Origin: Deroplatys truncata
Lineage: Eukaryota; Arthropoda; Insecta; Mantodea; Mantidae
NCBI GenBank assembly: GCA_030765065.1
Contig: CM060990.1
Span: 462,467,321-462,531,320 of the forward strand
Reading direction: 5' to 3'
DNA length: 64,000 nucleotides
Below the pieces are notes generated by a model. That model did not search any database, was not told where the DNA came from, and saw only the letters and a list, made by a program, of their open reading frames with translations. Every line of letters starts with the position of its first letter. Position 1 is the first letter of the stretch. A program made the translations under genes and the position numbers. Positions 3,519 through 46,566 of the stretch are shown here, piece by piece.

Positions 3519-3584
3519 AGTAGTAATAAAATGATGGTTCACGGCCACTTAATATGCAGGAATGTGCAATTAATATGCTAATAA

Positions 3585-3619
3585 GCCCCGCCCCCTCCCC
3601 TCCCCCCCGCCCTCCCCGC
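3585..3619 (-). promoter_or_regulatory. G-quadruplex-prone tract near E1 left terminus
   Basis: The plus strand is nearly pure C with runs of 4-7, broken by single G or T bases; the minus strand therefore has at least four G-runs. The mirror copy lies at 20331-20363. Each tract sits about 65-70 bp from an element end, so it could affect end processing or replication; that role is inference. Confidence 0.55.
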
Positions 3620-4494
3620 AGTGCCTTGGTAGTTTTAGTTGCAGCTGAGGGTCATAAATCTTGTTGAGTACAATGGAAGCTTGACAGTTAAGCAATTAAG
3701 GTTATCCTTCACCTGTCAAAACGAACAAAGGGGCCATAAATTTAAGGTTCTGTAACAAAGGCGAGATGTTTTTCCTACCCATTCCACATCAGGCCACTTC
3801 TGCACCTGTTGCAGTTACCCACCCCCATTTCCATTGTTTGTCGAACACGTGCGGGACCAAAGAGCTTACTGGACAAAGGAAGGGATTTCTATTGTGTGCC
3901 TTTCTATTGTCCGGGACAAGGCTACTTTCTGGCATACTCATTCCACTAGCTTTTAACAAAAGAACAATGCTTACCCTTCAGCTGTCAAAATGAACAAAGC
4001 CCATGATGAATTAGGGTCGTGACAAAGAGAACCTAAAGCCAGTTAACAGAGAAACAAGTTCTATTGTCCGGGGCAAGCCTTTATTTCTCATTCCACTGCC
4101 CCATAACAAAGCCGGTCCCTTGCAATTGTTTCTCGAGCACTGCTAGCTTAACAAAAGAATCTGAAGGTGGCTTCATGCTCGTCCTGTCCTTGTTCGCGTG
4201 AAAGAGAGAGAAGCTTGTTTACCAGCTATGCGTAAACAACGTCAGAGTCGGCCATCATTATTTTTGCCCTGAGGGGCTGTTCTCTCCGATGTTTTACGAG
4301 ATCCTACGAATATATCCGAGAATAGTTAAACAAGCTCTCTGTTTATGTGGTTGACTTTTCAATCGCGATATGAAAATGTATTTAACCTATGTAATTACAA
4401 GCATTAAACCTCTGCGTGGATATCCATAGATCGGTGTTCGATTCTTACTGTAATCAAAAGTTTATTGCTAATGAGAAATTAATGATTGATATTA

Positions 4495-6535
4495 TATCAT
4501 TACCTTAATTAATAAAAGGGCGTTCAGAGGATTGTAGCTCGAATCTTACCCAGCGAAACTTTAATGCTTAATAAATATTAAACTATGCAAGGTGTGATTA
4601 AAATGCATTTAACAAATATAATTTAATTTTTCATACATCATTACCCTAATTAATGAAAGGGTGTTCAGAAGGTTCTAGCTTGAATCTGCGAAACTCTAAT
4701 GCTTAATAAATATTAAACTATGCACGGACAGATTAAAACGTATTTAACAAATATAATTTAATTTTTCATACATCATTACCCTAATTAATGAAAGGGTGTT
4801 CAGAAGGTTCTAGGTCGAATCTGCGAAACTCTAATGCATAATAAATATTAAACTATGCACGGCCAGATTAAAACGTATTTAACAAATATAATTTAATTTT
4901 TTATACATCATTACCCTAAATAATGAAAGGGTGTTCAGAAGAATATAGCTCGAATCTACGAAACTCTAATGCTTAATAAATATTAAACTATGCACGGCCA
5001 GATTAAAACGTGTTTAACAAATATAATTTAATTTATACGACATTACAATGTTTAACGAGCTGTATTCTTAGAAACCCAGAGGACCCTAGTTCAAATCTTG
5101 CCCTGCGAAACGCTATAAAACTATTAAGTTATTGAAGCAGGGGGCGGTCGGATTAAAATTGCATTTAAAAACTATCATTGTTTATATTAAACCACCGCGT
5201 ATATTTAGATATCCCGATGCCTAGACACCATTCTTTCTTCTTCTCCTCTCTTTTTCTTTCTATCTATCTCTTTCTTTCTCCACGACTTGTACACATTCAG
5301 GCGTTCACATATGCACGAGCACTTGTACACACATCAGCAAACATACACCAGTACACGCACACACGCACACAAACGCACACGCGCAAGCACATACACACAC
5401 GCGCAAACACATACACACGCACATACATACACCAGCACACACGCATACATACACCAGCATACACGCATTCACGCATCTCATACGTACACATACATACACC
5501 AGTGCTCTTACACTCACACATACATATACATGGACACACGCACACGCATACACACACATACACGCACACACACTCACATGCATACATACATACGCCGTTA
5601 CACTTGCACATACGCACACGACCACACACACACGCGCGCGCGCAAGCACATATGCCTGTTCTATTACACCCAGCAGCACCAATCCACACACGCACACGCA
5701 TACACACGCACACACCAACTCACGCGCATGTCCTGAATGAAAAGAGACAAAATGATGCAATAAAAACTAATTATAGTTTGGGATGCAAGGCACATTTACG
5801 AATTGTTCGAAACTGGTCTGGATGCATGGGTTCGAATCCTAGGAGTGATTACAAATTCATCTTCTAATAACTCCAAAACTAATTAAAATAAAGACGGTAA
5901 ATAAAGTTTAGTACTTTTATGCCATTAGCCCGTTTCTTCTGCATGTATATTAGAGTACCAGGTGTCATGGGTTCGATCCTTAATTTTAAAAATCTCAATT
6001 ATCTCAGAAACTAACCTGGATAGAGGAGCGGACCAAAGCATGATTGTTAGCTCCTATGATGGACAATTAATGCCTTATATAATTTCCAATCAGTTGTCCC
6101 TAGCTCGAATCCCGATCTTTCAGTGACTTCCTTAATTTTCCAGTGTACACTAGAATATATCACTTAGATCGATGCTGTAACTGCATACAGGTCTTTTAAA
6201 CACGTCAAACTAATATTATAAATAATTTTGTTTCTGGTGTTCCGAGTTCGAATACCGATTCAATGAAATTTGCTTATAAATTTAATAACATAGTAAATAA
6301 TTAAGATAAAAGTCACCTAATAAACCTTATTACGTTTATGTCATCAGTTAGTATCTTGCGGGTATATATTCGGGTACCTGACGTCCAGGGTTCGATTCTT
6401 AAGTTTAAATCTCAATTATCGCAGAAACTAGCAGAGATAAGGCCGCGGACGAAAGCATGTTTGATAGCTCCTACAATGAACAATTAATGCTGTATATAAT
6501 TTCCAATCAGTTGCCCCTAGTTCGAATCCCGATCT
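4495..6535 (+). repeat. B-box/tRNA-like repeat array, left arm of E1
   Basis: Eleven copies of a GGTTCGAATCC-like motif (a tRNA T-arm or Pol III B-box shape) occur near 4540, 4680, 4816, 4950, 5090, 5833, 5973, 6116, 6248, 6393 and 6523. Spacing is mostly 130-145 bp. The first four lie in a clear tandem repeat of about 135 bp whose units share AATGCTTAATAAATATTAAAC. Later units are more diverged and share blocks such as CAATCAGTTG next to the motif. I do not see complete cloverleaf tRNAs. They may be decayed tRNA-like sequences or arrays of TFIIIC-type sites. Confidence 0.5.
5327..5722 (+). repeat. CA-rich, Z-DNA-prone imperfect repeat, left arm
   Basis: Degenerate (ACAC/CATACA) sequence containing a GCGCGCGCGC core near 5634-5643. 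It creates long spurious histidine/threonine-rich open frames in several phases, which are not called as genes. The right-arm copy is 18254-18650. Confidence 0.85.
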
Positions 6536-6789
6536 TTCAATGACTTTCTTAATTTTCCTCTGTACACTAGAATGTAACTGCATGCAGCTTTGTGTAAAGA
6601 CATTATGGATGTACTCTGAGAGTGAGAGCGAGAGAGAGCGGGAGGAAGTGAAACAAGTAGGGATAGAAGTGCCGAGAGCCTCTGCGCATGCGCAGCAAGA
6701 GATGATGTCATTGGCTGCAATAATCACGTGAGTGTAAGCATCACAGCAATGATGACTTGCCGGCATCGCCTGGAGGGGGTTTAGATCCG

Positions 6790-6797
6790 TATATAAA
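6790..6797 (+). promoter_or_regulatory. TATA box of the arm gene (left copy)
   Basis: TATATAAA, identical in the mirror copy at 17203-17210. It lies about 130 bp upstream of a consensus splice donor (CAAG|GTGAGT, intron from 6928) and about 840 bp upstream of the 115-aa reading frame. Conservation in both arms and the downstream donor support a Pol II promoter. Confidence 0.6.
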
Positions 6798-6927
6798 CAG
6801 ATATCTGCTCATGTTAGAACTTTTGTGTACTTATTAACTTTACATTTAAGTTTTAAAGAACTTTAAAAGCAACGCAAGGTGCAGGCCATCTACACGTACA
6901 GCGCATATCAACACATAACAATGCAAG

Positions 6928-7630
6928 GTGAGTTTTTTACATAACTATACAAAATCACTGTTGGCTTTTACAATACATTTAATTTTGTTTAAACTTTTCA
7001 GTACGTGAAAGACGATTTGTTGCAAAGAGCATCATATTTTCTAATCTGTGCTTTACATTCACATGGATTTCACTGCGTACTCTTCTCCAGTTCACATGAT
7101 TTTCGCCGCACATTCTTCTTACATAAACATTCATACGATTTCCCCCCCTCATTATTTGTTTCACTATACACTCACATGATTTACTCTACTCATTCTTTGT
7201 TCCCCTGCAGGTTCATGCTCTGTTAACATTCACACGACTTTTTCTGCACATTCTTTGCTTCCATTAACATTCACACGATCTTCGCTGCACATTCTTCGTA
7301 CATAAACAATCATACGATTTTCCCCACTCATTCTTTGTTTCACTATACATTCGCACACGATTTCCTCTACTCATTCTTTGGTTCTCTGCTGGCTCATCTT
7401 CAATGAACATTCACATGATTTTCTGTACTTATTATTTGTTTCTCTACACATTCATACGATTTTTGCTGCACATTCTTCTATTAATATTCACACGATTTTC
7501 TCCATTCGTTCTTTGTTTCTCTACACATTCATAGGCATACTTACAAAACATGCACACACCCTAGTTCTAATATAAAGAAGTGTATAACATGTTCTTCAAC
7601 TTGAATAATGTAGTGAAAATAATAATTCAG
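6928..7630 (+). other. Predicted 5' intron with internal tandem repeat
   Basis: Donor GTGAGT at 6928 and acceptor TTCAG at 7626-7630 frame a 703-bp intron. Most of it (about 7050-7560) is a diverged tandem repeat with recurring blocks such as CATTCACACGATTTTC and TCATTCTTTGTTTC. The ATG just before the donor is not in frame with the main coding region after splicing and would give only a short upstream ORF. The right-arm intron is only about 444 bp, so the repeat has expanded or contracted since duplication. Confidence 0.55.
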
Positions 7631-7634
7631 GACA

Positions 7635-7982
7635 ATGTCTGTTACAGATTGTATAGCTGATAGACTTAACAAGATGGTTGAAGAGCGTGGTTTCCTACCG
7701 ACTCGTCGAGTTCAAGATCTCGAAATAGGTCTTAACTATGAGATAAAGTCCTTAAAGAGAGTTCAAACAAGATATGGTACCAGGATCGTATCTTCGCTGG
7801 AGGATTGTCAAGTGTTCTTGCCAGAGCGCTATTATTCGTTAACCAGTCAAGAGATTGCAGAAATACCTGGGAACGTATACCTCCAGTATAACGATATGGC
7901 AGAGATGGGGAAATTTAAGACATGTAAATTGTCTTTTTTACATGCAAAGAAGGTGCGTAGAAGTGTCAAACTTAAGTATTGA
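7635..7982 (+). CDS. Small virus-like accessory protein, possible OB-fold (left-arm copy)
   Basis: An intact 115-residue frame starts at ATG 7635, five bases after a consensus acceptor. The protein is charged, with a basic C terminus (KKVRRSVKLKY). The middle has a beta-strand-rich pattern: a stretch ending in YEIKSLKRVQTRYGTRIV, then a VFLPERY motif, then a YLQYN segment and a final hydrophobic/basic strand. This pattern resembles short proteins often found beside virus-like genes in arthropod mobile elements, and I infer a possible nucleic-acid-binding OB-like fold. No catalytic residues are visible. The near-identical mirror copy at 16276-16623 shows the frame has been kept open in both arms, unlike the capsid-like genes. 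Transcription runs toward the centre of the palindrome. Function is not established. Confidence 0.6.
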   Translation: MSVTDCIADRLNKMVEERGFLPTRRVQDLEIGLNYEIKSLKRVQTRYGTRIVSSLEDCQVFLPERYYSLTSQEIAEIPGNVYLQYNDMAEMGKFKTCKLSFLHAKKVRRSVKLKY

Positions 7983-8344
7983 ATGTTCTCCTATTTCACA
8001 ATGAAAAATTCTAAATAAAACAACTGACTCATTGATATTACATATAAAGATACAAAAGATGCATATTATAGAATTTTATAAAAAATTTACGAAATCACAA
8101 TATCACATGCTTTGAGTTTAATTATATCTAGCGCATTGAAATAACTCTAAATATCCGAATGTTTATACAAATCTTTGTGCTTCATTTTACATGTATCATA
8201 TGCTTCATTTTACATGTATCATAACAAAAAATGTAATTCTTTTCAGGTTGCCTTTACTTGACCAAGATAGTTTTCTAAGACTTTCATTGTGCAATGTTTC
8301 AGGGTGTGCAATAAGAGGAAGAAGAAGAGGAACAGCCTGCTGCC

Positions 8345-9703
8345 ATGCAAAGGATGCTGACGCTATTGGAGGGTAGAATAAGCACCATCGGCACCTACAA
8401 GAAACATTTCGGCAAGAAGCGGGTGCTGAGACATCTACATCACCGAAACACGTTAAGACAGGATCCTTATACAACATTACAGGTGTAACGGTATTACTTA
8501 CAAATGTTATTTATTGTGATGTTTGTGTATGTGTGTTTACTTCATGTAAAGCCATCTTGTGACGTCATTCATTTGTTCGGTTTGTAGCTCCATCTGGTGT
8601 TAGCTATTTGCGGCAGTATTAGTTTTTGTTTGAAAGAATTTTAAATTTTTATTTAATTCTGTTTCACTGTCCTCCGGCTAGCTATTATTTCTCGGTCGAA
8701 CATGTTTCTTGATCAGGGTGTGTAAACGGAAAGGAATCTTTTATCCAAATATAACTGATGAAGAAATTTGTTTTACACATTTATTGTCGAACACGTTAAC
8801 TATCACATTTATACATTGATCTTAACACTTGCCAAACTGAAACTGTTATAATAACTTCTTACTGATCACTCTTAATTTGCGTACTTCAACTTTTTGTATA
8901 ATTAACCTTACAACACTTTAGATTATTCATAATTCTGCTGCGCGTAACTTGTGAATCGATACCCGACGTTTGCCGTACAAATACTTTCGACGAACTGACT
9001 GACTGAAGACGACGTGTAGTGTACAAGATTTTTGATGAACTGAACGACTTTACCTCAAACCTACCCTATTTATACTCCTACACACCGATATGCCTAAAGA
9101 TTATAACTGAACTGCAATTGGCTAATAAAACGCGCCAACATTAGCGTCTATTTTTATATCCAATGAAAATTATGAATACATATGCTCTAGGGAAACGTTC
9201 CAGAAGTTTCTCAAGGAAACAACGCGCCAATATTACGTAACTTCCTCGTTTCCAATACTGATAAACAGCTCACCCCCTCGCTGCATTATTGCACTATTAT
9301 TGACAGTTTCAGTAAGGTCGTATAAACTTACTTATCAACAATAATTACAGTCAAGAAACATCTCAAATCAATGTCACATAAAAATGCATATTCATATTAC
9401 AATCATTATTTACATTTAAGTAATTTGTGATACAAATTACTGCATCACAGGGTATACGATGAAAAAATACGGACAATTTTGTATACAATTCAATGCATAG
9501 CTGAGAGTTAGCTTGAACGAGTCTCCCTATATTGACTGAAATTATGCATTGTGAGCAATAATTTAAGTGACTGTGAAAATACTTTAAGTAATGGTGAAAT
9601 TTGTATCCTAAAAGACTTGAGCCCTGTATACATTAACAGCATTAAGACTGTTTGCCACGCTGGAATACAAATTATGAAAATAAAAAGACTTTCATATAAA
9701 TAA
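8345..9703 (+). pseudogene. Gene X, left-arm copy, split by a solo LTR
   Basis: The left counterpart of the right-arm gene at 15553-15935. Starting from the ATG at 8345 the frame matches the right copy only briefly. A small indel near 8373-8380 changes the frame, and at 8484 a 964-bp LTR interrupts it. The distal part resumes at 9452 and runs to the TAA at 9703. It lies downstream of, and on the same strand as, the 115-aa gene. Product unrecognised; clearly non-functional here. Confidence 0.5.
8484..9447 (+). mobile_element. Solo LTR inserted in E1 left arm
   Basis: The insert begins TGTAACGG and ends TGCATCA, so it has TG...CA ends, and is flanked by the 4-bp direct repeat CAGG (8480-8483 and 9448-9451). 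Removing the insert plus one CAGG restores exactly the uninterrupted right-arm sequence around 15809. It therefore inserted after the arms existed. Internal blocks (CCTCCGGCTAGCTATT near 8672 and CAGCTCACCCCCTCG near 9267) recur in the related sequence at 26590-27395. No protease, reverse transcriptase or integrase is present, which fits a solo LTR. Confidence 0.8.
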
Positions 9704-10009
9704 TACAGAAATTTGCATAACCTGCTGTTACAAGTGTAATGACATATACAGAAACAATGAGTCGGATGAGAAACTGATGGAAATGTTAGATAAATAATAA
9801 CAATAAAAGAATTAAGGTATGCTTTTACATAGTGTTTTTATTCATTAAAAATCCTTGCATTCCTAATGAAAAATAAATCATTACAATGATTAGTTTAAGT
9901 TATGTCACAATGATCAAAAAGAGAACCGTCTTTAGATGCATTACTCGATCTTAAGTCAGAGCACCAAAAAATGACAAATCACGGCTTCTCCATTTTAGAT
10001 GTGGTGTCA

Positions 10010-10352
10010 CTATTCAGGTAAATCCCTGTAACACAGCAGGTTGAGTATGCAGATCCATGATCCTAAATGGTGAAACAGAGTCTTATCCAGCTTAACAGTC
10101 TTGAGGATCTCAGCATCAGAAAGTCGAATCACAGGCCTTCTCCACTCGATGAGTACAGGTTTAACAACAGCCTTCTCTTCACCCTGAGACGGTGTAAAGT
10201 ATATAAATGTTCAACTTGACAAGGGATTCTAAACTCGTTGTTAGAGTCCAGAACTGATGTATTATATGGTGAAAACACATGTTCCTCTTCTTAGTGATCT
10301 TGTCGTCGAATCTCGGTGTCAATGAGGTTTGGGTAACATTGAAGATGCCCAT
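10010..10352 (-). pseudogene. Frame-broken capsid-like (hexon/MCP) fragment, left-arm copy
   Basis: Minus-strand mirror of 14904-15246. It starts with an ATG at 10350-10352, only two bases after the stop of the preceding gene, and the first frame ends at TGA 10179-10181. Later conserved-looking segments continue in other frames. Motifs include MGIFNVTQTS at the start and an EWRRPVIRLSDAEILK segment near the end. These resemble the N-terminal part of major capsid proteins encoded by arthropod Polinton/adintovirus-type elements. The rest of the capsid gene is missing because the arm moves directly into gene X on the other strand. The frame breaks are the same as in the right arm. The assignment comes from recalled family patterns, not a search. 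Confidence 0.5.
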
Positions 10353-10354
10353 GA

Positions 10355-10708
10355 TTATAGGATTCTGAAGCCCAATAACTGTAGGAACTGCTGATTGCGT
10401 GATGTTAACCTGATGGGTGTCAAGGGCAGAGCATGATGTGTGCGTCGAATCATTCCATTATTATATCCTCGACGTCGTTGACTTCTTCTAAAATCTATAG
10501 GCATTATGCTTATATCCTTGTTTCTAAAGGCAATGATATTGCTGTTACGCTCCCCTGTTTCCTCTATGAAGCTGATGTTTATGAACAACAGGTAAAATTT
10601 GATTTGATGGTTCCTGTGAAATACGGTATCCAGCCGTAACAGATGGGAAAACTGATAGATGGTGTGTCCGCTTTTACTGTAGAGGAAGGAGACTGATGCA
10701 ATACTATG
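10355..10708 (-). CDS. Virus-like structural-region protein of unknown function (left-arm copy)
   Basis: An open frame of 118 codons lies between TAG at 10709-10711 and the stop at 10355. In-frame sequence of the same character continues upstream of that TAG, so the gene is probably longer and interrupted. The C-terminal half is basic (RRSQRRRG) and ends in LTPIRLTSRNQQFLQLLGF. Similar C termini occur in proteins placed just before capsid genes in arthropod adinto-like elements. No ATG begins the open segment. The gene sits between the pX-like gene (upstream, minus strand) and the capsid-like fragment (downstream), as expected for a late structural cluster. I cannot name the protein. It is near-identical to the right-arm copy. 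Confidence 0.5.
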   Translation of the reverse strand, partial: HSIASVSFLYSKSGHTIYQFSHLLRLDTVFHRNHQIKFYLLFINISFIEETGERNSNIIAFRNKDISIMPIDFRRSQRRRGYNNGMIRRTHHALPLTPIRLTSRNQQFLQLLGFRIL

Positions 10709-10862
10709 CTAAATTCGTATGATGCTCAACCTAAATATATTCACTAGAAAATCAGATTCAGACAGCTGATTAGATGGAATAACTTTGTCACTGAAGGGCC
10801 ACAGAACGTTCCTATAGAACAATCACTGGAAAAAATCAAGAGTAAAAGGACATTTTAATGAC

Positions 10863-10864
<2 letters not shown>

Positions 10865-10908
<44 letters not shown>
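10865..10908 (+). repeat. (TTA)n microsatellite in E1 left arm
   Basis: About 15 TTA units. The mirror site in the right arm at about 14374-14391 has only a few units, so slippage followed arm formation. Confidence 0.9.
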
Positions 10909-10910
<2 letters not shown>

Positions 10911-10990
10911 CTGATCTAATAAAGAAGACATTCGCATCCTAATATGAGGAATCTTAAAACATTGGACATACAAGACGGGATCTATGTTAA

Positions 10991-11497
10991 TTAATGATTT
11001 TTCAGGGACAAGTATAGCCCTCTGGCAGAGTTTTTGAATTCCCTTTCTAGATCTGTTCCCCTCTTCGATTCGATGTTCCTGCCCTTATTCTTCTTCACTC
11101 GTAGGCCTTTCCCTCTTGATTCAATTTCTTTGTTACGTCTCATCATTTCAGCAAGTTGTTTATCCGCAGCTTTTTTCTTATTTACAGCTGTAGCAATCTG
11201 TGATGCACCTCCAGCGGCGGCTCCTAGTGCTGCAATAATTGGTATGAGCGGAAGAAATCCTCCTCGTTTCTTCTTTTTGGACCCACCGCCAATAGATACC
11301 TTTCTCTCAATTTCTCTCTTCTGCCACATCATTTCGGTAATTTGTTTATCCCCAGCTTTTTTCTTATTTACAGCTGTAGCAATTTGGGCTGCATCTCCAG
11401 CAGCAGCGCCTAGAGCTGCAATAATTGGTATGAGAGGTAGAAATCCTCCTCGTTTCTTCTTCGTGGTTCCTACACCTGGAGCTACCTTTCCCTTCAT
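10991..11497 (-). CDS. pX-like membrane-active protein with duplicated hydrophobic module
   Basis: A 168-aa frame starts at ATG 11495-11497. It contains two near-identical modules, each a basic stretch (KKKRGG) followed by a Gly/Ala-rich hydrophobic helix (FLPLIPIIAALGAAAG) and then a basic NKKKA linker. They fall at roughly residues 13-60 and 75-125. The tail is Lys/Arg-rich (KGLRVKKNKGRN). This composition matches the hydrophobic pX/VI-like part of proteins in adintoviruses and Polintons, which usually has a single module and sits C-terminal to a phospholipase A2-like domain. That domain survives in pieces immediately upstream (11540-11765). The internal duplication is unusual. The stop lies about 35 bp from the end of the left arm, so the gene marks the palindrome junction. 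Confidence 0.65.
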   Translation of the reverse strand: MKGKVAPGVGTTKKKRGGFLPLIPIIAALGAAAGDAAQIATAVNKKKAGDKQITEMMWQKREIERKVSIGGGSKKKKRGGFLPLIPIIAALGAAAGGASQIATAVNKKKAADKQLAEMMRRNKEIESRGKGLRVKKNKGRNIESKRGTDLEREFKNSARGLYLSLKNH

Positions 11498-11539
11498 AAT
11501 TGCTGTTACTAGTCACGCTGCCAACTTTTTCACCTAATG

Positions 11540-11765
11540 TAACATCAGATGTTTGCGCTCTTTTCCAAGTCGTTTCAGCCAGATCTTGTCAGCAATGTTT
11601 CTCGAAGCAGAGACCTTAGGCTGAGCGTAGGCAATGTCGCTAATATTACACGATTCGTCTAACGGAAGGATTCCAGGGTCTCCTCTCTTTAATTTTTCTC
11701 TAGCTTTACCCCAGTTCCTCAGTATATGTAACCAGGTAAATGTACTTCAACGGTTGCAGGCTAGT
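11540..11765 (-). pseudogene. Decayed phospholipase A2-like domain upstream of the pX-like frame
   Basis: Minus-strand coding traces run into the pX-like gene but are broken by stops and a frame change. Recognisable pieces are a GDPGILPLDE stretch and a core reading ISDIAYA (about 11626-11646), followed by ASRNIADK. In the parvovirus-type PLA2-like proteins of arthropod elements this core normally has a His-Asp pair; here the His position is Ser. One of the stops falls at the cysteine position of the expected calcium-loop region. I read it as an inactive remnant. Assignment is from family patterns I recognise, not alignment. Confidence 0.5.
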
Positions 11766-12041
11766 GAGAGAGTTAATTAAACCGAAACCTCTTGCGAGCT
11801 TAACCACCTTAGGTCTCACGTTATACTAATCGATTTTATTCGGGATAGTTCTTTTATACCTTCTCATTAGCGTATATACAATAAGAACGATTTATTTTAT
11901 TTTAGCTGTCAACCTAGAGCGGATGAAACAAGAATGCTCACAGCCTATTCATATGTTAGACTTTGAAAGCGACTTTAGACGTGAACTTAGTGGAAAACTG
12001 TTTCATGTCAATGTTCTAGACATGCCCATCACGTAACCCAT

Positions 12042-13296
12042 TCAGGGAAAAGGTGACTCGCTCAGGCGAAAAGGTGACTGCTCAGGGAAAAAGGTGACAT
12101 GCAACGGGAAAAAGGTGACCAGCAAAAGGGAAAAAGCTGACCCGCAAGGAGAAAAAGGTGACCAGTAAAGGGAAAAATGTGACCAGCAAAGGGGAAAAAG
12201 GTGACCTGCAACGGAAAAAAGGTGACCAGTAAAGGGAAAATGTGACCAGCAAAGGGAAAAATGTGACCAGCAAAGGGAAAAAGGTGACCAGCAAAGGGAA
12301 AAAGGTGAACAGTAAAGGGAAAAATGTGACCAGCAAAGGGAAAAAGGTGACCAGCAAAGGGAAAAAGGTGACCATCAAAGGGAAAAATGTGACCAGCAAA
12401 GGGAAAAAGTGACCAGCAAAGGGAACAATTTGACCAGCAAAGGGAAAAAGGTGACCAGTAAAGGGAAAAATGTGATCAGCAAAGGGAAAAATGTGACCAG
12501 CAAAGAAAAAAAGGTGACCAATAAAGGGAAAAATGTGACCAGCAAAGCGAAAAAGGTAACCAGCAAAGGGAAAAAGGTGACCAGCAAAGGGAAAAAGGTG
12601 GCCAGCAAAGGGAAAAAGGTAACCAGTAAAGGGAAAAATGTGATCAGCAAAGGGAAAAAGGTGACCAGCAAAGGGAAAAAGGTGACCAGTAAAGGGAAAA
12701 ATGTGACCAGCAAAGGGAAAAAGGTGACCAGCAAAGGGAAAAAGGGGACCAGTAATGAGAAAAAGATGACCAGCAAAGGGAATAAGGTGACCAGCAAAGG
12801 GGAAAAGGTGACCAGTAAAGGGAAAAAATGTGACCAGCAAAGGGAAAAAGGTGACCAGTAAAGAAAAAATTGTGACCAACAAATGAAAAAAGGTGACCAG
12901 CAAAGGGAGAAAGGAGACCAGTAAAGGGAAAAAGGTGACCAGCAAAAGGGAGAAAGATGACCAGCAAAGGGAAGAATCTGACCAGCAAAGGGAAAAAAGG
13001 TGACCAGTAAAGGGAAAAAAGGTGACCAGCAAAGGGAAAAATGTGACCAGCAAAGGGAAAAATGTGACCAGCAAAGGGAAAAAGGTGACCAGCAAAGGGA
13101 AAAAGGTGACCAGCGAAGGGAAAAAGGTGACCAGTAAAGGGAAAAATATGACCAGCAAAGGGAAAAATGTGACCAGCAAAGGGAAAAAGGTGACCAGCGA
13201 AGGGAAAAAGGTGACCAGTAAAGGGAAAATGTGACAGCAAAGGGAAAAAGGTGACCAGCAAAGGGAAAAAGGTGGCCAGCAAACGGAAAAAGGTAA
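12042..13296 (+). repeat. 21-bp minisatellite in E1 loop
   Basis: About 60 copies of a 21-bp unit, GTGACCAGCAAAGGGAAAAAG, with point variants (GCAAAGGG/GTAAAGGG, AAGG/AATG). Because 21 is a multiple of 3 it leaves long open frames on both strands (LLVTFFP-type on minus, SKGKKVT-type on plus). These are by-products of the repeat and are not called as genes. The array lies between the pX-like gene and the zinc-finger gene and is not part of the mirrored arms. Confidence 0.95.
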
Positions 13297-14901: not shown

Positions 14902-14903
14902 TC

Positions 14904-37489: not shown

Positions 37490-37494
37490 AAGCA

Positions 37495-37530
<36 letters not shown>
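37490..37530 (+). repeat. (ATT)n microsatellite in E2 left arm
   Basis: About 13 ATT units, mirrored by a shorter (AAT)n at about 43796-43820. Confidence 0.9.
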
Positions 37531-37534
<4 letters not shown>

Positions 37535-37765
37535 CTATTATTCAATTCATATCATCGTTTGCCGGCGAGCCGTCTGCCGTCCACAGGACTAGTGATGGGG
37601 GTGCAGCCTCCTACATTTTTCACCCAGCCAGGGTGGATGCAGTAGTCTCATATTCGAATGATAAGAAATCTTTATACATTATTTTCACGGTATCTTATGG
37701 GAAAATTAATTTCCTTTCCCTGCTGCTACTCTTATTATTATGATTGTGATTATTATTATTAAAAC

Positions 37766-37885
37766 ACACAAATTACTTAAAATAAGTTTTACTGTGGCAT
37801 AAGACGTTTCTGGGATATCCCTTATTAAAGATTCGAATTGTTCAATACTTGTCATTCTTTTAAAGTCTCTCCGACTTTCAGTTGT
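37766..37885 (-). CDS. Short conserved reading frame of E2 (left copy)
   Basis: A minus-strand frame containing RDFKRMTSIEQFESLIRDIP. The right-arm counterpart (43502-43582) keeps the first part with conservative changes and then meets a stop. Many changes preserve amino-acid type (I/V, D/N, S/T), which suggests past coding constraint. It may be one exon of a spliced gene. Family unrecognised. Confidence 0.35.
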
Positions 37886-38399
37886 TTCTCGCGAATGCAA
37901 GTGTGGAATTTAAGACAGCATAGCGTCCAGTTCTTACACGTTTGACTATCGCTGATCTCTTTGTAACTATAACGAAATGTTTAATGCATATATTTGTCAA
38001 GGTTTATTTAGATTAAGATGTAGTAGATAGAAAAATAAGCTATATTAAGCATAGTTTGTATACCCGCTTATAAAGATAGAGGTTAGAGAAAGGCATGTGT
38101 ATGTATCACATCAGATTCTTTAAAGGAGGCGTTCACAGAGCTTGTATTATATTGATAGAAACCGTTTTTCAAGAGCGATAAATTCACAAACACAATCATA
38201 ATTGAGTCTACACTATACAAATACGAATATGATTTTTATAACGATATATGCGGATGTGTGACTTTCTCTATCACGTGCATAGTAGACAGAGAAGGTATTG
38301 TATTCCACCCAAAAATTTGATATCGAGTTTGCACAGAAAATTCATGTTTTGAGCAACCCCTCCCTGAATAAGAAAAAGCATTTTAGAAAAAAAGTCCTG

Positions 38400-38560
38400 G
38401 TCGAATGTGAATAGCATAACACAAAAAACGAAAAGGTGGATAAATACCACACTTGGTATTTAGGTTCAGTACCTTCCAACGATGCCACACGAAGATTTTC
38501 AGGAAAGTTCCCCATCTCTTCATCTATGCTTTATATGCAACATTTCTCGAAGATTTTAAT
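38400..38560 (+). pseudogene. MPHEDFQ-type reading frame, left copy of E2
   Basis: Counterpart of 42745-42993. The start ATG has become GTG, and a TAG interrupts the frame (at the position of the Tyr codon in the right copy). The motif MPHEDFQE follows. Related segments occur at about 48550 and 52896 in decayed relatives. Product unknown. Confidence 0.4.
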
Positions 38561-38708
38561 TTTTTAAAAAACCGCAGTGTATTCTAATATACAAAAAATA
38601 ACTTATTATTATTATCATCATCAGAATAATAAGAAATCCTTGTACATTGTTTGCAGTGTATTTTATTACACAAAAATTAATTTCTTTTACCTGCATCTCT
38701 TATTATTT

Positions 38709-38822
38709 ATCTTTGAAGGAAATTGAAACATTTGAAAAGCAGGACAGTGAAATACCAATTACAGTGTTCGATATAGAAGAAAATACAGTTAGATTTGAGC
38801 TTTTATTCATCGATATGACATA
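38709..38822 (+). pseudogene. KEIE-type reading frame, left copy of E2
   Basis: Conserved with the minus-strand right copy (about 42680-42560): a charged segment (KEIETFEKQDSEIPITVF) followed by a TAA that the right copy does not have. Probably an exon or gene fragment; family unrecognised. Confidence 0.4.
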
Positions 38823-39119
38823 ATTATACGGTCATGCAAATGCTACCTCATTTACTATTTTATTTTATATTACCTTTATCACATCTATTCTTTTTATAAT
38901 TTACCTTAAGTCTAAGTTCCTTAACGAAATAATACTGAATCAATGGCCTTAAATATAGTTATCTAGCACATTTATCTGAATGAAATTAAGATTTTAAATT
39001 TTGTTAATCCGCTAGTTAAGACATTCCCCCTTTCACTTCTTAATAGATTAGCATACGCTATTTCGGATATGTGTCAGGAATGGTAAAGCTGTCTAATCCA
39101 TGCTTTTTATATGTTTATA

Positions 39120-39413
39120 GGAGTGAATTACCTTCGCCATTTGCAAGCCTACAACACTGCGGCATCATGTGATCGATACATAACGGAACAATTTTTAGAG
39201 GATACAGCTGAAAAGGAAAACAAGGTTCCAGGGTATAGCAACCCAGATGATTTGCCTATTGAAGTGCGATCATTGTCATCTTTACCATCATCATCGCTAT
39301 CGTCAACCCCCAGGACAATGACATCACAATCTACAATTCTGGTAATAGAACTTTCCCGACGCATTCCTCAAGACCCCTCCAATTTCCGAGAAATCATTGA
39401 CCTAACCGAATAG
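39120..39413 (+). CDS. NYLRHLQAY-type reading frame, left copy of E2
   Basis: About 97 residues after an acceptor-like TTTATAG at about 39119. Begins VNYLRHLQAYNTAASCDRYI, then an acidic stretch (EDTAEKENK), then a Ser/Pro/Thr-rich low-complexity tail and a final FREIIDLTE. The right-arm copy at 41930-42280 is about two-thirds identical and keeps its frame, indicating coding constraint. No methionine directly supports a start, so it may be a 3' exon. Function unknown. Confidence 0.45.
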   Translation, partial: GVNYLRHLQAYNTAASCDRYITEQFLEDTAEKENKVPGYSNPDDLPIEVRSLSSLPSSSLSSTPRTMTSQSTILVIELSRRIPQDPSNFREIIDLTE

Positions 39414-39689
39414 CCACCTCTAACATAGCAATCAAACCCGCCACCACAAACATCACATCAACACATCAATCATGAATATGCATTATCAGGCATTAGCTCG
39501 CTAGCATTATCACGCTACATAGGTATACACAATCACCGTAGACGCTCCATACGGAGGCGATTAATGTTTGACACCATGAACCCGGTCCTACTCCCTCTCC
39601 CGCCTTTAATTCGAATCCAAACCTATCAGAAGAGAGAATATTTACACAAAATACAATAAAATGTACAATCACATACACATGTACTCACT

Positions 39690-39722
39690 CACACCCACGC
39701 GTGCACACACACGCGCGCGCGC
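39690..39722. repeat. Alternating CA/CG tract, E2 left arm
   Basis: CACACACACGCGCGCGCG core, Z-DNA-prone; mirrored by a longer tract at 41711-41752. Confidence 0.8.
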
Positions 39723-39796
39723 ATTCATCCAGTTCATTCATTCCGCTTCACAGTTGATCCTATTCCAGCATACTAAGCAAAAACGTAGGAGAAACA

Positions 39797-39799
<3 letters not shown>

Positions 39800-39846
<47 letters not shown>
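39800..39846 (+). repeat. (TTA)n microsatellite, E2 left arm
   Basis: About 15 units; mirrored by interrupted (AAT)n at about 41575-41617. Confidence 0.9.
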
Positions 39847-39848
<2 letters not shown>

Positions 39849-40110
39849 GCATGTGATTATTTTCAGGAGTCGAGATAGATTTCAGAGCCATGTAATATTT
39901 AGGTGTATAGTAAGATTAATAAAAGAAGGCTGTATAACATAAACCAAATTTATTTTATATAAATTATCCTATTACAATCCTTCACAAATTAAACAGTGTA
40001 GCAATGCCTGGACAAGTCATTTTATGGTAGAAGTTCCTAGTAATCGTGATGTGTTTCAAAGTTTTTGTTAACTATCGTCGAAATTCATTTTAACCATTTA
40101 TGTGTGACTG

Positions 40111-40542
40111 TCATGGTATAGCTTTAGATGCTTTCAGCTTGCTTATAATTTGTTCAATCTCTTGCGTAGGGTTGCTACTACCGGCGTCTCTGGACGCGAT
40201 AAGCAGCCTTAGCATATTCATCCGTCTATTCGTATTTTCAAGCGTAGATATCACTGAACTATGACCACTATAGTCACCATATAGAGACTCCAAGTTAATA
40301 AACACACAATCTCCACTGTATTCGGCATCTTGTATACCTATGGATAGATCCTTTATCACATCAGCTTTTAATGCTTCTAATTCCTCACCCACAGGAGATT
40401 CAAGTGTGGGACAGCTAGTAGGTTCATTATAATATCTCCCTCTATGCATCTTAAGTCTCGACAAAGTTCGATTCTTCAAAATTCGCTTACATATACAATA
40501 CCTGAAGAATCGTTTTTTTCCGAGTGTGACGTATGACGTTTT
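40111..40542 (-). CDS. BED-like zinc-finger protein, left copy of E2
   Basis: The minus-strand frame is open from 40542 (after TGA at 40543-40545) to the stop at 40111. Near its start it contains YCICKRILKNRTLSRLKMHR, matching the finger of the E1 loop protein (ICNRTLKNRTISRLKQHR). The Cys/His spacing is similar, though the second half of the finger (RRCC in E1) reads GRYY here, so one zinc ligand appears lost. The C-terminal half ends with TQEIEQIISKLKASK. No ATG is visible at the 5' end; a homopolymer of seven A near 40512 makes the start uncertain. It is transcribed outward from the palindrome centre. Confidence 0.5.
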   Translation of the reverse strand, partial: KTSYVTLGKKRFFRYCICKRILKNRTLSRLKMHRGRYYNEPTSCPTLESPVGEELEALKADVIKDLSIGIQDAEYSGDCVFINLESLYGDYSGHSSVISTLENTNRRMNMLRLLIASRDAGSSNPTQEIEQIISKLKASKAIP

Positions 40543-40734
40543 TCATAGGCTGGGTGTAATGCTCCTCTGCCACAATAGCTCCTAGTTATTCTCTGAAGGA
40601 AATTAAATGTATACGCAGATGCAAACTGGTGAATGAATTAAAAGCAAAAGAATTAAATTAATATCTTTCAAATACTTATATATAATCGAAACCTTGTTAG
40701 ATATAAGCTAAGATAACATCTACAATTCATTCTA

Positions 40735-41314
<580 letters not shown>

Positions 41315-41710
41315 AATACATCATGATTACCAAGAACTTCTACTATAAAATGACCTATCCAGGCATCGCTGCATTACTTAATTTGTGAAGGATTATAATA
41401 GTATAATGTGTATAAAATAAATTTGGTTTATATTATACAGCCCTCTTGTATTAATCATATACACTTCATATTATACCATCAATTATTAGATGCCTCTGAC
41501 ATCTATCTCGACACCAGAAAAGAATTACATTTGTTAGATAAAAAGGAGAGAAGGGGTGGGTGATAGTAATGATGATGATAATAATAATAATAGTAATAAT
41601 AACAATAATAGTAATAAAGAAGTAACAATAATATTTTGATTCTCCTGAGCTTTTGCTTAGCATGTCGGAATAGATGCGATTGTGAATCTCAATGAATGAA
41701 TTGGTTGAAT

Positions 41711-41752
41711 GCGTGTGTGTGTGTGTGTGTGTGCGCGCGCGCGCGTGCGCGT
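41711..41752. repeat. Alternating TG/CG tract, E2 right arm
   Basis: About 11 TG units followed by GCGCGCGCGCG; Z-DNA-prone; longer than its left-arm mirror. Confidence 0.85.
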
Positions 41753-41929
41753 GTATGGTTGTATGTTTTTTGTATTCTGTTCAAATATTTCCTCTTCTGA
41801 TGGATTTGCATTCGAATTAAAGGCGAGAGTGGGGGTAGGGTCGGGTTCGTGGTGTCACAGTTTAATCGCCTCCATATGGAGCGTCTACGATGATTGTGTA
41901 TACCTCTGTAGCGAGATGATGCTAGCGAG

Positions 41930-42280
41930 CTAATGCCTGGTATTGATGATTAATGAGATATTTGTGGTGGCGGGGTTGATTGTAATGGTAAAGTCAATGA
42001 TTTCTCGGAAATGGGAGGAGTCTTGAGGAATGCGTGGGGATAGTTCTACTATCAGGTTTGTAGACTGTGCCGTTATTGACCCGTGAGTTGACGATGGCGA
42101 TAATGGTGAAGGTGATAAGGAGCACACGTCGATAGGTAAATCTTCTGAGTTGCTGCACCCTGGAATTTTGTTTTCCTCTTCAGCTGTATCATCTAAAAAT
42201 TGTTTCATTATGTACCGATCAAATGATACCGCAGCGTTGTGGGCTTGCAAATGGCGAAGGTAATTCACTCTTATAAGCAT
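41930..42280 (-). CDS. NYLRHLQAH-type reading frame, right copy of E2
   Basis: Counterpart of 39120-39413, with VNYLRHLQAHNAAVSFDRYI then an acidic and Ser/Pro-rich region ending FREIIDFT. The frame continues 16 residues beyond the left copy's stop. The ATG at 42280 precedes the conserved part in this copy, whereas the left copy has an acceptor-like TATAG at the equivalent place. Function unknown. Confidence 0.45.
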   Translation of the reverse strand: MLIRVNYLRHLQAHNAAVSFDRYIMKQFLDDTAEEENKIPGCSNSEDLPIDVCSLSPSPLSPSSTHGSITAQSTNLIVELSPRIPQDSSHFREIIDFTITINPATTNISLIINTRH

Positions 42281-42458
42281 ATAAAAAGCATGGATTAGAG
42301 AGGTTTACCATTCCTGACACACATTTGAAATGGCGTATGTTAATCTAATAAAAAGTGGAAGAGAGATTATCTTAACTAGTGGTGTAAGAAAATTTGAAAT
42401 CTGAATTTAAATCAGATAAATGAGCTAGATAGGCATATTTAAGGTTATTATTTCAGTA

Positions 42459-42690
42459 TTATTCGGTTAAGAAAGCTAGTTTTAAGTAAGTTATAAAATG
42501 AATAGACTTGATAAAGGCAATATAGAATAAAATAGTAAATGAGGTAGCATTTGCATGACCGTATAAATATGCCATATCGATGAGTAAACGCTGCTCAATT
42601 CTAACTATATTTTCCTCTATATAAAACACTGAAATTGTTACTTGACTGTCCTGCTTTTCAAAGGATTCAATTTCTTTCAATAATAAATAA
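42459..42690 (-). CDS. KEIE-type reading frame, right copy of E2
   Basis: Conserved segment KEIESFEKQDSQVTISVFYI continuing through DMAYLYGHANATSF. The left copy has a TAA shortly after IDM, so the right copy is the longer. The C-terminal part is hydrophobic (ILFYIAFIKSIHF). Upstream sequence in the same frame shows no clear conservation, suggesting an exon start near 42680. Product unrecognised. Confidence 0.4.
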
Positions 42691-42744
42691 TAAGCGGAGA
42701 GAAAACAAATTAATTTTTCTATAATAAAATACACTGATGATAAA

Positions 42745-42993
42745 TTACGGAGATTTCCTACCCTTCGAATAAAAACAATAATAATAGTGATAATATATCT
42801 TTGAGTAATGCAATACACTCGGTTTTTTAAAAAATCCAAAGTTTCGAGAAATGTTCCATGTAAAGGATAGTTGAGGGGATGGTGGAGTATCTTGAAAATC
42901 TTCGTGTGGCATCTTTGGAAGGTACTGAACATAAATACCAAGTGTGGTATTTATCCACCTTTTTTGTTTTTCTGTTATGCTGTTCATAGTCAT
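42745..42993 (-). CDS. MPHEDFQ-type reading frame, right copy of E2
   Basis: 82 codons from ATG at 42991-42993 (or 42985-42987). The conserved core is RWINTTLGIYVQYLPKMPHE followed by DFQD and a Pro/Ser stretch. The left copy is broken. Homologous sequence with the start M-x-H-x-DFQD recurs in relics at 48.5 and 52.9 kb. Function unknown; probably an element-encoded gene or leader exon. Confidence 0.4.
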   Translation of the reverse strand: MTMNSITEKQKRWINTTLGIYVQYLPKMPHEDFQDTPPSPQLSFTWNISRNFGFFKKPSVLHYSKIYYHYYYCFYSKGRKSP

Positions 42994-43501
42994 ACGTGGA
43001 CCTTTTTTTCTAAAAATTCTTAATTATCAAGGAAGGAGGGAGCTCAAAATATGAATTTACTTTGCAATCCCGGTATCGAATTTTTGGGTGGAATACAATA
43101 CCTTCTCTATCTACCATGCACATGGTAAAGAAAGTAAACATCCGCATATACCGTTATAAAAATCATATTCGTATTTCTATAGTGTGCATTTAATTATTAT
43201 TGTATTTATGCATTTATCACTCTTGAAAACAGTTTCTATTCGGCTAGACTTAGTAAAAGCTCTGTGAACGCCTCCTTTAAGAAATCCGATGTGATAAACA
43301 CACTTGATTATGTCTACCCTCTATCTTTATTAGTGGGTATACAAACTATTCTTAATAAAGCTTATTTACTACATCTTAATGCAAATAAACCTTGCAAAAA
43401 TAGATACATTACACATTTTGCTATAGATACAAGAAGACCAGCGATAGTCATATGTTTAAGAACTGAACACTAAGCTGGCTTAAATTCTACACTTGCAATT
43501 G

Positions 43502-43582
43502 CGAGAAGCAACTGAAAATAGAAGAAACTTTAAAAGAATGACAAGTGTAGAACAATTCGAAACTTTAATAAGGGATATTTAG
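43502..43582 (+). pseudogene. Right copy of the EQFE-type E2 reading frame
   Basis: Contains NFKRMTSVEQFETLIRDI then TAG at 43580-43582, where the left copy continues. Truncated relative to 37766-37885. Confidence 0.35.
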
Positions 43583-44450
43583 AAACGCCTTATACCGCAG
43601 AAAAATTCTTTTAAGTAATTTTTCTATAATACAATATAGGTAGTGGAAATGATGTGCAGACTTCTCACCATTCGAATATGAGACCACTACATCCACCCTG
43701 GCTGGGTGAAAAATGTAGGAGGCTGCACCACATCACTAGTCCCGTGAGCGGCAGACGGCTCGTCGGCAAACGATGATATGGATCGAATAATAGCATTAAT
43801 AATAATAATAATAATAATAATTGTTTTTGCATCATCGTATACATCTGAAATAATGGATAAAATGCTTACTTTGGAATGTGATAGAGGACCCCGCGAAATG
43901 AATTACCCTTGGCATGGTGCTACACTCAGCTTCCAGATTATCTGGCTCCTCAACAAACGATAACTCTAAGGCTGGAACATATCGATATCGGATCATAGTC
44001 ATATTTCATAATTTTTAGATTCTGATATTAAAATTATTTTACTGCATTCTTACAGATACAATAGCATGTTCATGAGATGGTCGCTGTTATGATAGATCAT
44101 TTAACTTGAAATTGCTGTCATTCGAGTATAAACTAAACACAGAACAGCAAACAAGTAAGAAGCAGTATGTGTGTATTATTAAGTAAAGAAAAAAACAGCT
44201 TACTCAGTGCAAATATTTTTAGGGAATGAGATTCTTAATTATACACAATTTTCACGTTATTAGGGGAATAGTTTAATGCATTATTTATCACAAGAGCACC
44301 TTCTTGTTTAAGGATGAGAATGCGCTTATTAAATAATTTTGACGTGCTGATAATTAAATATATTTCTTGCGCTCGTATAGGTACAATAGCATATTCACGG
44401 GGAATGGTCAGTGTTACGATCATTCGAGTAAAAACTAATAAAGAATAGTA

Positions 44451-44836
44451 TTCATTCATTCATTCATTATCTGTTTACCCTCCTCTTATGTAGGACTTAC
44501 ACCCCCCAGGACTTACAAGCGGATGCCTGGGGTCAGAGGCCCGTCGAGGAGCAGACACTCATGGATCAGACAGAGCATCCAGGATGGGTGATCAGCCCGA
44601 TGCCTGGTATGGGATGAAGGAAGTAGATGAAACGAAATGTTGGTGAAATGGATGAAAGGAAAGGTGATGATGGAGCAGTTGGTGGAATGAATGGCGGGGG
44701 AAACCGGAGAACCCGGAGAAAACCCGCCCAGACGCCGCTTCGTCCACCACAAATCCCACATGCAGGTCCCTGGGATTGAACCCGGGCCGCCTCGGTGGGA
44801 GGCGAGCGGTCTAACCACTCGGCCACGGCGCCGCCT
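44451..44836 (-). mobile_element. tRNA-Ser/Leu-like SINE inserted in E2 right arm
   Basis: On the minus strand, starting at 44836: GGCGGCGCCGTGGCCGAGTG is a tRNA-like head with A-box, and GGTTCAATCCC near 44776 is a B-box. A body containing the alternating CTCCGG repeats follows, with a (GAAT)n tail at 44451-44467. It is flanked by the 15-bp duplication TAATAAAGAATAGTA (44436-44450 and 44837-44851), proving retroposition. The E2 left arm lacks it. Confidence 0.9.
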
Positions 44837-46356
44837 TAATAAAGAATAGTAAAGGATAAAAAATCACTGAGTACATTAAACAAGGATTTGTGTATATCCA
44901 TTTAAGATGAGGCAGTTATGCGCTTTAACACTGAAGCATGCGGTTGCCTACCCACTATACTAATATGATTGTATTAGAACAAGTAAGGTTTCTAGCTTAC
45001 TCACCATAGTTTTTCGATGATGTATTCACTTCCACCGAAGACAAAGATGTAGACACTTTTCTTTTTTGACGAGTACAATAAGCGCAAACACACCTGTTGG
45101 AGTTGTACTTTGAGAACTATAATTGCAAGTTTTATGTTTTTATAGTATCCTATGCATGTGTAGTGAACTAGAAATGGATCGATCTGATTGGCTATTCTAC
45201 TTTTACAGATTTATGTGAATTGTCTACTGAATTAGCATTTTTCCATTGGCTTACAAATATTTTTCGCTGGGTTTGGCTGTGGGGATAGTCCTCCTCTCTA
45301 CTCCTGGTCTATGGAATAATTCCGTTTGTGATATTAAAGGTGTATTTATTCCTTTTTCAAGGGTTTTTCCCCTGGCAGAGGTAAACACTGAATATTTCTC
45401 AGAATTCTTGGGAGGTGCGTATGCTGTAAACACAGTTTTTTCAATAAATTACATTTTTCATTTGGGGGATTATGAATGGTTTCTCATAGCTCGAACAAAC
45501 CCTTAGAAAGCAAAAACGTTTATGTCTTGCTCGGTTCGGGGTTGTAGATAATTTTTCAATAGATGGTAAAGTAAACAGTACTTAAAATAAATATTCGAGC
45601 GCGTGTGATGGTACATCTTGAATACAGAGGAGGTAAACAAGTCACCATAATACAAAGTTTAAATATTAGTATTTTTCAGGTCTTCTTTTGAGCCTTTTGA
45701 AACCAGGTAGATCCGCTTATGTATAGTGGGAGGGTGGGGTGGCTAACCTGTTTACAGAATCTCCTGTATTGTTCTGTTCGGTCGAGTGCATTTTTTCCAG
45801 CTTTAAGATTTCATCTAAAGATAGGATATGAGATAGGGAGGAACAGGGAGAGATGTGTAGACGAAAGGAAAGGGTCTTTAAAGAATGAGATTACTTGTAT
45901 AATTTCCAATTTTATTGTCAACATGTATAATGTAGCACCTGGAATAATAATTATCATTCATCACAGCATAAGGCTTGTGACTTACTCCATCTTCAAGAAA
46001 ATTTACCTCGCCACCTTAGTCGCATTCTGTCGACATTTTAAGTCAAAGAGGTGTTAATTATACACACGTATAATACTCCTTATAATACTCTTGGTATTCT
46101 TTAATATAAATGGTAACTCACATGCGCAGTAACAACCAGGTGTGGGCGTCAATTAGTATACACTTAATTATATTAATCCATCATACTTTCGGAATTCTTT
46201 AATATTACATGGTAATACACATATACGATACTGGAAATCCAAGTCGTTATAGGGGGCGGCATAGGCTGTATCGCCGGCTTCAACCTTTGAAGTCAATGAT
46301 ACGAGATAATTATACGCACTTCAAATTGTTATCTGATTGATTGAAATAATATATAT

Positions 46357-46403
46357 CACCTGTCAACCCTTATCAAACTCCTGTCAATCAGGTTTGACGG
46401 GTG
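46357..46403. promoter_or_regulatory. Hairpin near E2 right terminus
   Basis: CACCTGTCAA ... TTGACGGGTG, one mismatch in the stem (A to G), loop longer than in the left arm. Mirror of 34598-34633. Confidence 0.45.
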
Positions 46404-46566
46404 ACAAGCAGTTAGAAACACCGGCTCCTTTGGCGATAAGTACCCTCAAAGGCGGCGAAATGTCAAAAAACGTGTGTAATCTAAGTATATGGTCAATTAA
46501 GCTAATCGGATTATACGCCTAATTAATTGTCGGCATTCCCTTTGGCCCCGTAGCTGTATAAGTACT

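Follow-up and report, generated by a model that had tools for sequence, protein, structure and literature searches.

Giant palindromic elements in the genome of the mantis Deroplatys truncata as probable non-autonomous Polintons

We analyzed a 64,000-nucleotide stretch of the Deroplatys truncata genome (the window; C16:462467321-462531320, within a 4.29-Gb assembly) that carries two giant palindromes, E1 (3519-20431) and E2 (about 34433-46566). The two are probably members of two families of non-autonomous Polintons with a giant palindromic genome; this grading covers the whole explanation and was lowered slightly for unresolved inner junctions in two E1-type copies (d and j). Comparison of copies shows that, in the E1 family, one Polinton end (terminal repeat, arm gene and capsid gene) forms both ends of the element, with a phospholipase A2 (PLA2)-pX gene on one side only and the polymerase end absent. 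As judged from their flanks, such palindromes insert as units with 6-bp target-site duplications (TSDs). Arms of 5.7-7.4 kb at the identity found in E1 and E2 are far beyond chance.

Element E1 and its relatives

E1 is 16.9 kb long and consists of two inverted arms around a 3.37-kb loop. It has the ends AGTAGT..ACTACT and is flanked by a perfect 6-bp TSD. The arms are 96.7% identical over 6,092 aligned positions; since they differ by 3.3%, they do not represent one read counted twice. A search of the genome with the terminal 1.9 kb of E1 gave 69 matches (best 40 of 5,460 candidates scored), which were grouped by hand count into 25 loci: E1 itself, 14 further inward-facing end pairs with ends 7-17 kb apart, and 10 single ends. 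Ten of the 14 further pairs were fetched, as halves. Eight of these (copies a [L003/L004], b, c, d, i, j, k and m) are giant palindromes with the same plan as E1, with loops of 2.4-4.3 kb and aligned arms of 4.9-6.5 kb (about 1.4 kb longer in d, k and m); together with E1 they are spread over contigs C7, C8, C9 and C16. The other two, AUT1 (L017/L018) and AUT2 (L019/L020), are polymerase-bearing, adintovirus-like Polintons with terminal repeats of 3.1-3.3 kb. L020 encodes a PF03175 polymerase (1.1e-25); the polymerase frames of L017 read like those of L020 but gave no PF03175 hit. L018 carries an open PLA2-pX gene (PF08398, 2.1e-14; PF05829, 1.5e-9) and a double-jelly-roll capsid frame (PF21738, 3.7e-26), as well as a frame (L018:1187-1603) that by eye resembles an adenovirus-type protease and that matched Josephin alone in Pfam, below cut-off (0.026). 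The arm gene is present in two copies in all eight fetched palindromes and in one copy in both polymerase-bearing elements, and a single pX copy occurs in each of the ten. A zinc-finger gene was found in 8/8 palindromes (the match being partial in j) compared to 0/2 polymerase-bearing elements. The features of E1 are as follows.

3513-3518: left TSD, GCTGTC (read directly; identical to 20432-20437)
3519-10955, plus strand: left arm, starting with AGTAGT, the Polinton end motif
7626-7982 (listed from 7635), plus strand: left-arm gene, 115 amino acids, inward-reading
8484-9442: insert unique to the left arm, about 968 bp, in part resembling 26632-27286
9898-10197, minus strand: remnant of a double-jelly-roll capsid gene in the left arm, 86% DNA identity to L018:2205-2512
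10994-11497, minus strand: adenovirus-pX-like core protein in the loop, an open frame with an internal duplication (PF05829, 6.1e-10, above cut-off)
11534-11746, minus strand: decayed PLA2-like part of the same gene (PF08398, E = 0.056, below cut-off)
12044-13298: 21-bp minisatellite in the loop, about 60 copies
13691-14245, plus strand: zinc-finger gene, outward-reading (zf-BED, 0.0088, below cut-off)
14326-20431, minus strand: right arm, terminating in ACTACT
15059-15358, plus strand: remnant of a double-jelly-roll capsid gene in the right arm, DNA match to the capsid end of AUT1/AUT2
16276-16632, minus strand: right-arm gene, inward-reading and open, 90% identical to the left copy
20432-20437: right TSD, GCTGTC (from the sequence)

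Alignment of the left half of E1 with the capsid-gene end of AUT1/AUT2 begins at 3546/3553 and reaches 12003, in collinear blocks separated by unaligned gaps. The right half aligns with this end too, starting at 20397/20404 and running inward as far as 15059. With the polymerase end of AUT1/AUT2, E1 aligns through the terminal repeat alone, to 6742. As both halves of E1 map to the capsid-gene end, E1 can be read as a non-autonomous Polinton in which the capsid-gene end has taken the place of the polymerase end. The capsid gene survives in E1 as decayed DNA homologous to the PF21738 gene of L018, with no open gene, and the decayed PLA2-like part is collinear with the open gene at L018:444-1277. 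The arm-gene reading frame is open in both arms of E1. A search with the pX protein (961 candidates, threshold E ≤ 1e-3) recovered 60 metagenomic homologues; 35 carry the annotation PF08398 (PLA2-like), and one (P0055) derives from an entomopoxvirus-associated virophage. A homologue search with the arm protein found none, and its predicted structure was unusable (pLDDT 42.7). Scans of IMG/VR with pX, the arm protein and a PLA2-pX alignment gave no matches, nor did a scan of a phage collection, and none of six proteins searched matched NCBIfam.

Exact 6-bp TSDs flank seven of the nine E1-type palindromes (E1 GCTGTC, a CAGGGG, b CACACA, c TATATT, d CACTTA, i CATCTT, k TCCATG), and those of j and m agree at 5/6 positions. 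Seven of the nine (E1, a, b, c, i, k and m) have their inner junction at one and the same place, to within 2 bp. In a tree of 22 arms built from three arm blocks (the left arms of a and b lacking the first block and the AUT arms the third), the palindromes form a single clade (support 100), and within it each left arm is sister to the right arm of its own element, in all nine cases (support 99-100). Because of the common inner junction and the one palindrome clade, the data point to a single founding event followed by spread of E1-type palindromes; and as the arms of one element are sisters, they must copy each other. By tree region, the arms are sisters in 9/9 palindromes for the inner arms and in 8/9 for the outer 0.9 kb, the exception being c. 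A tree of the outer ends mixes AUT1 and AUT2 among the palindromes (AUT1 beside i, AUT2 with the right end of c and with d), so that ends seem to move between palindromes and polymerase-bearing elements.

A search with the inner arm of E1 gave 43 matches (best 40 of 3,346 candidates scored), or 41 places once two very short matches were dropped. Of these, 24 form 12 inward-inverted neighbour pairs, including that of E1, with none in another orientation; the remaining 17 have no partner in the scored set. At C16:550157280-550159010, only about 0.12 kb separates an E1-type inner arm from an incomplete inverted copy, which makes a nearly loopless palindrome. The termini also vary. Those of copy a are about 480 bp longer and likewise start with AGTAG, and the left end of c reads AGCAG. 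Copy a, AUT2 and the right end of L018 (AUT1) have in common an extra outer stretch beyond the AGTAGTAGG site (the ~480 bp in a); it is therefore possible that a terminus can relocate inward, onto AGT repeats inside the element.

Element E2 and the zinc-finger gene

E2 is a palindrome with a loop of 411 bp. Its arms are 78% identical overall, a figure in which one-sided inserts are force-aligned, and 81-88% identical per 500-bp bin outside those inserts and the outermost bin. Its features are as follows.

34433-40481, plus strand: left arm, starting with AGTAGG
36279-37176: insert unique to the left arm (gap between arm matches)
40111-40542, minus strand: left copy of the zinc-finger gene, finger motif present, no Pfam match of its own
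40735-40866, minus strand: mitochondrial COX1 fragment at the centre (PF00115, 1.7e-10), which also reads under the invertebrate mitochondrial code
40893-46566, minus strand: right arm, terminating in GTACT
40895-41314, plus strand: right copy of the zinc-finger gene, finger truncated, conserved C-terminal tail
44451-44836: insert unique to the right arm (gap between arm matches)

The terminal 1.8 kb of E2 gave 73 matches in the genome (best 40 of 623 candidates scored). Two end pairs, p (L037/L038) and q (L039/L040), were fetched, and both are palindromes with the finger gene. Element p has arms of about 7 kb at 67-81% identity, with finger and arm gene in both halves; q has arms of about 4.7 kb at 84-87%, one finger and no arm-gene match. 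In the E2-type tree, the arms of each element again pair (E2, support 86; p, 100; q, 99). No match to the AUT1 polymerase frames (E 1e-3), the AUT1 capsid frames or PLA2-pX proteins was obtained in E2, p or q. The Polinton link of E2 is supported by its AGTA ends, its finger gene and the arm gene of its relative p, features that make the kinship probable. The COX1 fragment occupies the site at which the 5' part of the right finger copy is missing, and p has matches to that 5' part in both halves. Because the fragment replaces a part kept twice in p, it suggests that a break at the centre of E2 may have been patched with mitochondrial DNA. The loop frame had been considered as a viral gene, a candidate rejected once it proved to be the COX1 fragment.

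Several smaller observations concern E2, the rest of the window and its contig. An open reading frame (ORF) at 36561-37040, in the left-arm insert, has a weak helix-turn-helix match below cut-off (PF13936, E = 0.034). A dispersed repeat in both arms (38373-38571, 42823-42995) recurs at 52784-53180 and beside copy a, and a fragment of an IS4-type transposase (DDE_Tnp_1_7, E = 1.4e-6) lies at 24388-24756 on the minus strand. Contig C16 makes up 16.5% of the genome. Hand counts among the matches listed place on it 13 of the 25 loci of E1 type (p = 5e-5), 25 of the 33 of E2 type (p = 9e-14) and 18 of 76 polymerase loci (p = 0.07); it is perhaps a chromosome retaining old insertions.

The finger proteins of E1 and E2 are homologous, with 51% identity over 49 amino acids (E = 2.4e-10 in a small local search). 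That E1 and E2 might be near copies of one element was rejected, the finger being the only clear protein match between them. In E1 the gene is a single copy in the loop beside the right arm and seems frameshifted near its end; E2 has one per arm. The gene was present in all 12 palindromes examined (nine E1-type and three E2-type) and in neither polymerase-bearing copy. At least 150 finger loci exist in the genome, E1 included (150 of 4,858 candidates scored, all 150 matching); about 128 of them have no stop by hand count, mostly with frames of 190-198 amino acids, although the scoring favours intact copies. An alignment search recovered nine homologues among 3,991 metagenomic candidates (P0061-P0069), of which P0061 and P0062 combine the finger region with the tail. 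The other seven (P0063-P0069) carry the precomputed annotation PF26634 (DUF8207), which we take to be a mark of a Polinton protein. Read directly, P0063, P0064, P0065 and P0067 have no finger, and all of these but P0065 were run through hmmscan, with no hit at E 0.01. The right finger copy of E2 is 71% identical to P0063 over 41 amino acids (E = 8e-14). The finger protein presumably binds DNA.

Much of what the initial annotation had read from the window alone was borne out: two palindromes that differ in most of their sequence, homologous finger genes near both centres, distinctive termini (AGTAGT..ACTACT in E1, AGTAGG..GTACT in E2), a wider family of mirror-image elements (8/10 fetched E1-type and 2/2 E2-type pairs) and, for E1, kinship to Polintons, for which the ends, the TSDs and DNA homology to elements with PF03175 polymerase and double-jelly-roll capsid genes all speak. 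Two of its claims hold in part. The short loop it gave both elements describes E2 and not E1, and the small inward-reading arm genes occur in both arms of E1 and both halves of p, with no copy detected in E2. In the 12 contexts inspected, of 150 scored loci, finger homologues did not sit mainly outside palindromes.

Proposed mechanism and rival explanations

On gene content, E1-type elements are non-autonomous derivatives without a detected polymerase or integrase. No polymerase Pfam match was found in six frames of 6600-10955 or in the ORFs of E1 and E2 that were scanned (the outer arms of E1 were not six-frame scanned), and no retroviral-type integrase in the stretches of E1 searched or in E2, which was searched through its ORFs only. 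Both elements would depend on helper enzymes for replication. Possible helpers are at least 76 loci with a PF03175 polymerase (76 of 11,882 candidates scored); at many of these, the frame stays open for 1,200-1,350 amino acids. One such locus (L045/L046) encodes an rve integrase (1.9e-16); it had no pX, arm-gene or finger match, and its terminal repeats were not found in the fetched stretch. Recent activity is suggested by the dozens of Polinton-type polymerase genes with long open frames on many contigs, some of which resemble one another in length and score.

As the origin of the founder we propose fold-back (snap-back) synthesis in the course of protein-primed, strand-displacing replication; end-duplicated defective adenovirus genomes offer a parallel. 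One Polinton end would have been doubled into a palindrome, with loss of the polymerase end and with the finger gene beside the centre. The palindrome could then re-insert at new sites with 6-bp duplications, Polintons elsewhere in the genome supplying replication and integration in trans. Displaced strands may fold into hairpins or panhandles in which one arm templates the other, and ends might be exchanged with helpers. We further speculate that the finger protein, the tail of which matches PF26634-annotated proteins, ties satellite DNA to a helper protein during replication or packaging. This is a guess, and such an adaptor role is rather doubtful. Equally tentative is the fuller proposal that these elements are true satellites of endogenous Polinton viruses, with hairpin-capable linear genomes, arm-from-arm copying, end swaps with helpers and a finger adaptor with a tail that mimics a helper protein, by which the helper's replication or packaging machinery would take the satellite DNA along.

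Several observations weigh against these proposals. No TSD was found at AUT1 or AUT2, whose flanks share the extra outer stretch, and the flanks of E2 show no clear TSD. In d and j, the alignment halts in a TTA tract, and the junction sequence is seen just on the left. No integrase turned up in the AUT1 stretches searched (the terminal repeats and AUT2 were not searched), so one would have to come from another Polinton; no integrase-bearing Polinton with the ends of E1 was seen, and no polymerase-bearing relative of E2 type was found. By raw identity, an element's own arms are closest to each other in 6/7 cases for the terminal-repeat block, 8/9 for the arm-gene block and 6/9 for the capsid block; in one block, the right arm of p is nearer the left arm of q; and the outer-end tree positions AUT1 and AUT2 without support values. 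A test for evenness of arm divergence, run on the seven elements other than E1 and d after removal of low-complexity and edge bins, showed patchiness in c, j and k (chi-square p < 1e-5). The arms of d agree at 93.7% over the outer 1.4 kb and at ~100% over the ~5 kb inside.

The patchiness, together with its weaker form in i (p = 0.006) and m (p = 0.04) and the higher similarity of inner arms than of outer ends in c, d, k and m, is what would be expected if arm similarity came wholly from gene conversion after insertion, as in sex-chromosome palindromes, and had no bearing on how the elements replicate. From c, j, k and d, later conversion or recombination does also act. As the whole account, however, it seems somewhat improbable: differences in a and b are even (p = 0.91 and 0.37), as expected for arms identical at insertion that then drifted, and conversion confined to a single locus would not alone account for the presence of the same ends in polymerase-bearing elements elsewhere. 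Far less credible is the idea that the palindromes are immobile and arose by inverted duplication of the chromosome, by nesting of head-to-head insertions or as artefacts of assembly. Elsewhere, fold-back duplication of chromosomes is common, and E2 lacks a TSD, but E1 and its eight relatives are bounded by AGT-type ends and 6-bp TSDs, share one junction in 7/9 cases and lie on four contigs, and the two arms of E1 have diverged. Duplication and nested insertion were rejected on the TSDs and shared junction, and this alternative is largely contradicted for E1.

It could be that the finger gene does nothing for the element and is a neutral passenger or a piece of host DNA, as its seeming frameshift in E1 would suggest; its nonsynonymous-to-synonymous ratio (pN/pS) of 0.73 across nine older copies (36 pairs, j partly covered; a weak test) indicates little constraint. 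Yet old copies mostly record neutral change after insertion, most scored loci (in a scoring that favours intact copies) have no stop, and the gene recurs in both families and in the metagenomic homologues P0061 and P0062, so we consider a mere passenger unlikely. The two families might also descend from one palindromic ancestor that kept its finger and swapped its arms for those of a new helper, instead of having two origins. Both families do have a finger near the centre and an arm gene in the arms, and ends seem exchanged between elements. The arm protein of E1, however, is 80-82% identical to those of the polymerase-bearing copies and 34-42% identical to that of p, so the arms of E1 should be younger than the split of the families, and no intermediate was seen. 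A shared origin is conceivable, though we lean toward two.

If the elements are indeed true satellites of Polintons, the two families and the many E1-kind finger loci (at least 150) would constitute a Polinton satellite system in an animal genome. Polintons are viewed as virus-like transposons whose replication is known mostly by inference. A palindromic multi-copy family would record that replication in sequence, through its founding end, the copying of its arms and the movement of its ends. It suggests that a defective-genome architecture, transient in protein-primed viruses, can become a heritable, spreading genome family, and the zinc-finger protein would offer a concrete handle on helper dependence.

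Comparison with known systems

Among the open-licence papers listed by our searches, we saw no description of non-autonomous Polintons with giant palindromic genomes. E1 resembles Polintons/Mavericks in its AGTAGT..ACTACT ends, 6-bp TSD, 16.9-kb size and double-jelly-roll capsid remnants, and differs from them in that no polymerase or integrase was found, both ends derive from one end and a zinc-finger gene has been added. The ends of E2 (AGTAGG, ..GTACT) fit the Polinton/Maverick end motif in part only. Mavericks are given the motif (AGT)2//(ACT)2 and 6-bp TSDs in PMC8097293, both of which E1 fits. Intact vertebrate Mavericks have terminal repeats of 46-1,447 bp (PMC8097293), compared to 6-7 kb in E1 and 3.1-3.3 kb in AUT1 and AUT2.

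Among other systems, adintoviruses resemble the AUT copies in their PLA2-pX, capsid and PolB genes. Adintoviruses are Polinton-like viruses bearing PLA2-pX, a core protein that E1 has through its pX part, the PLA2 part being decayed. Unlike them, E1 keeps capsid-end genes only, E2 has no match to such genes, and the searched parts of AUT1 yielded no integrase. Defective adenovirus genomes, in which one end is duplicated in mirror image, are transient by-products of protein-primed replication. E1 has a like end duplication and would belong to the same class of replication, in contrast to which the E1-type palindrome is integrated, at many sites. Virophages and other satellite DNA viruses depend on another virus-like element for replication, as E1 and E2 would; virophages, unlike these elements, keep their own capsid genes and parasitise giant viruses. 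Finally, fold-back transposons and Galileo-like elements have, like E1 and E2, very long inverted repeats around a small centre, from which the E1 family is set apart by its 6-bp TSDs, Polinton ends and viral genes.

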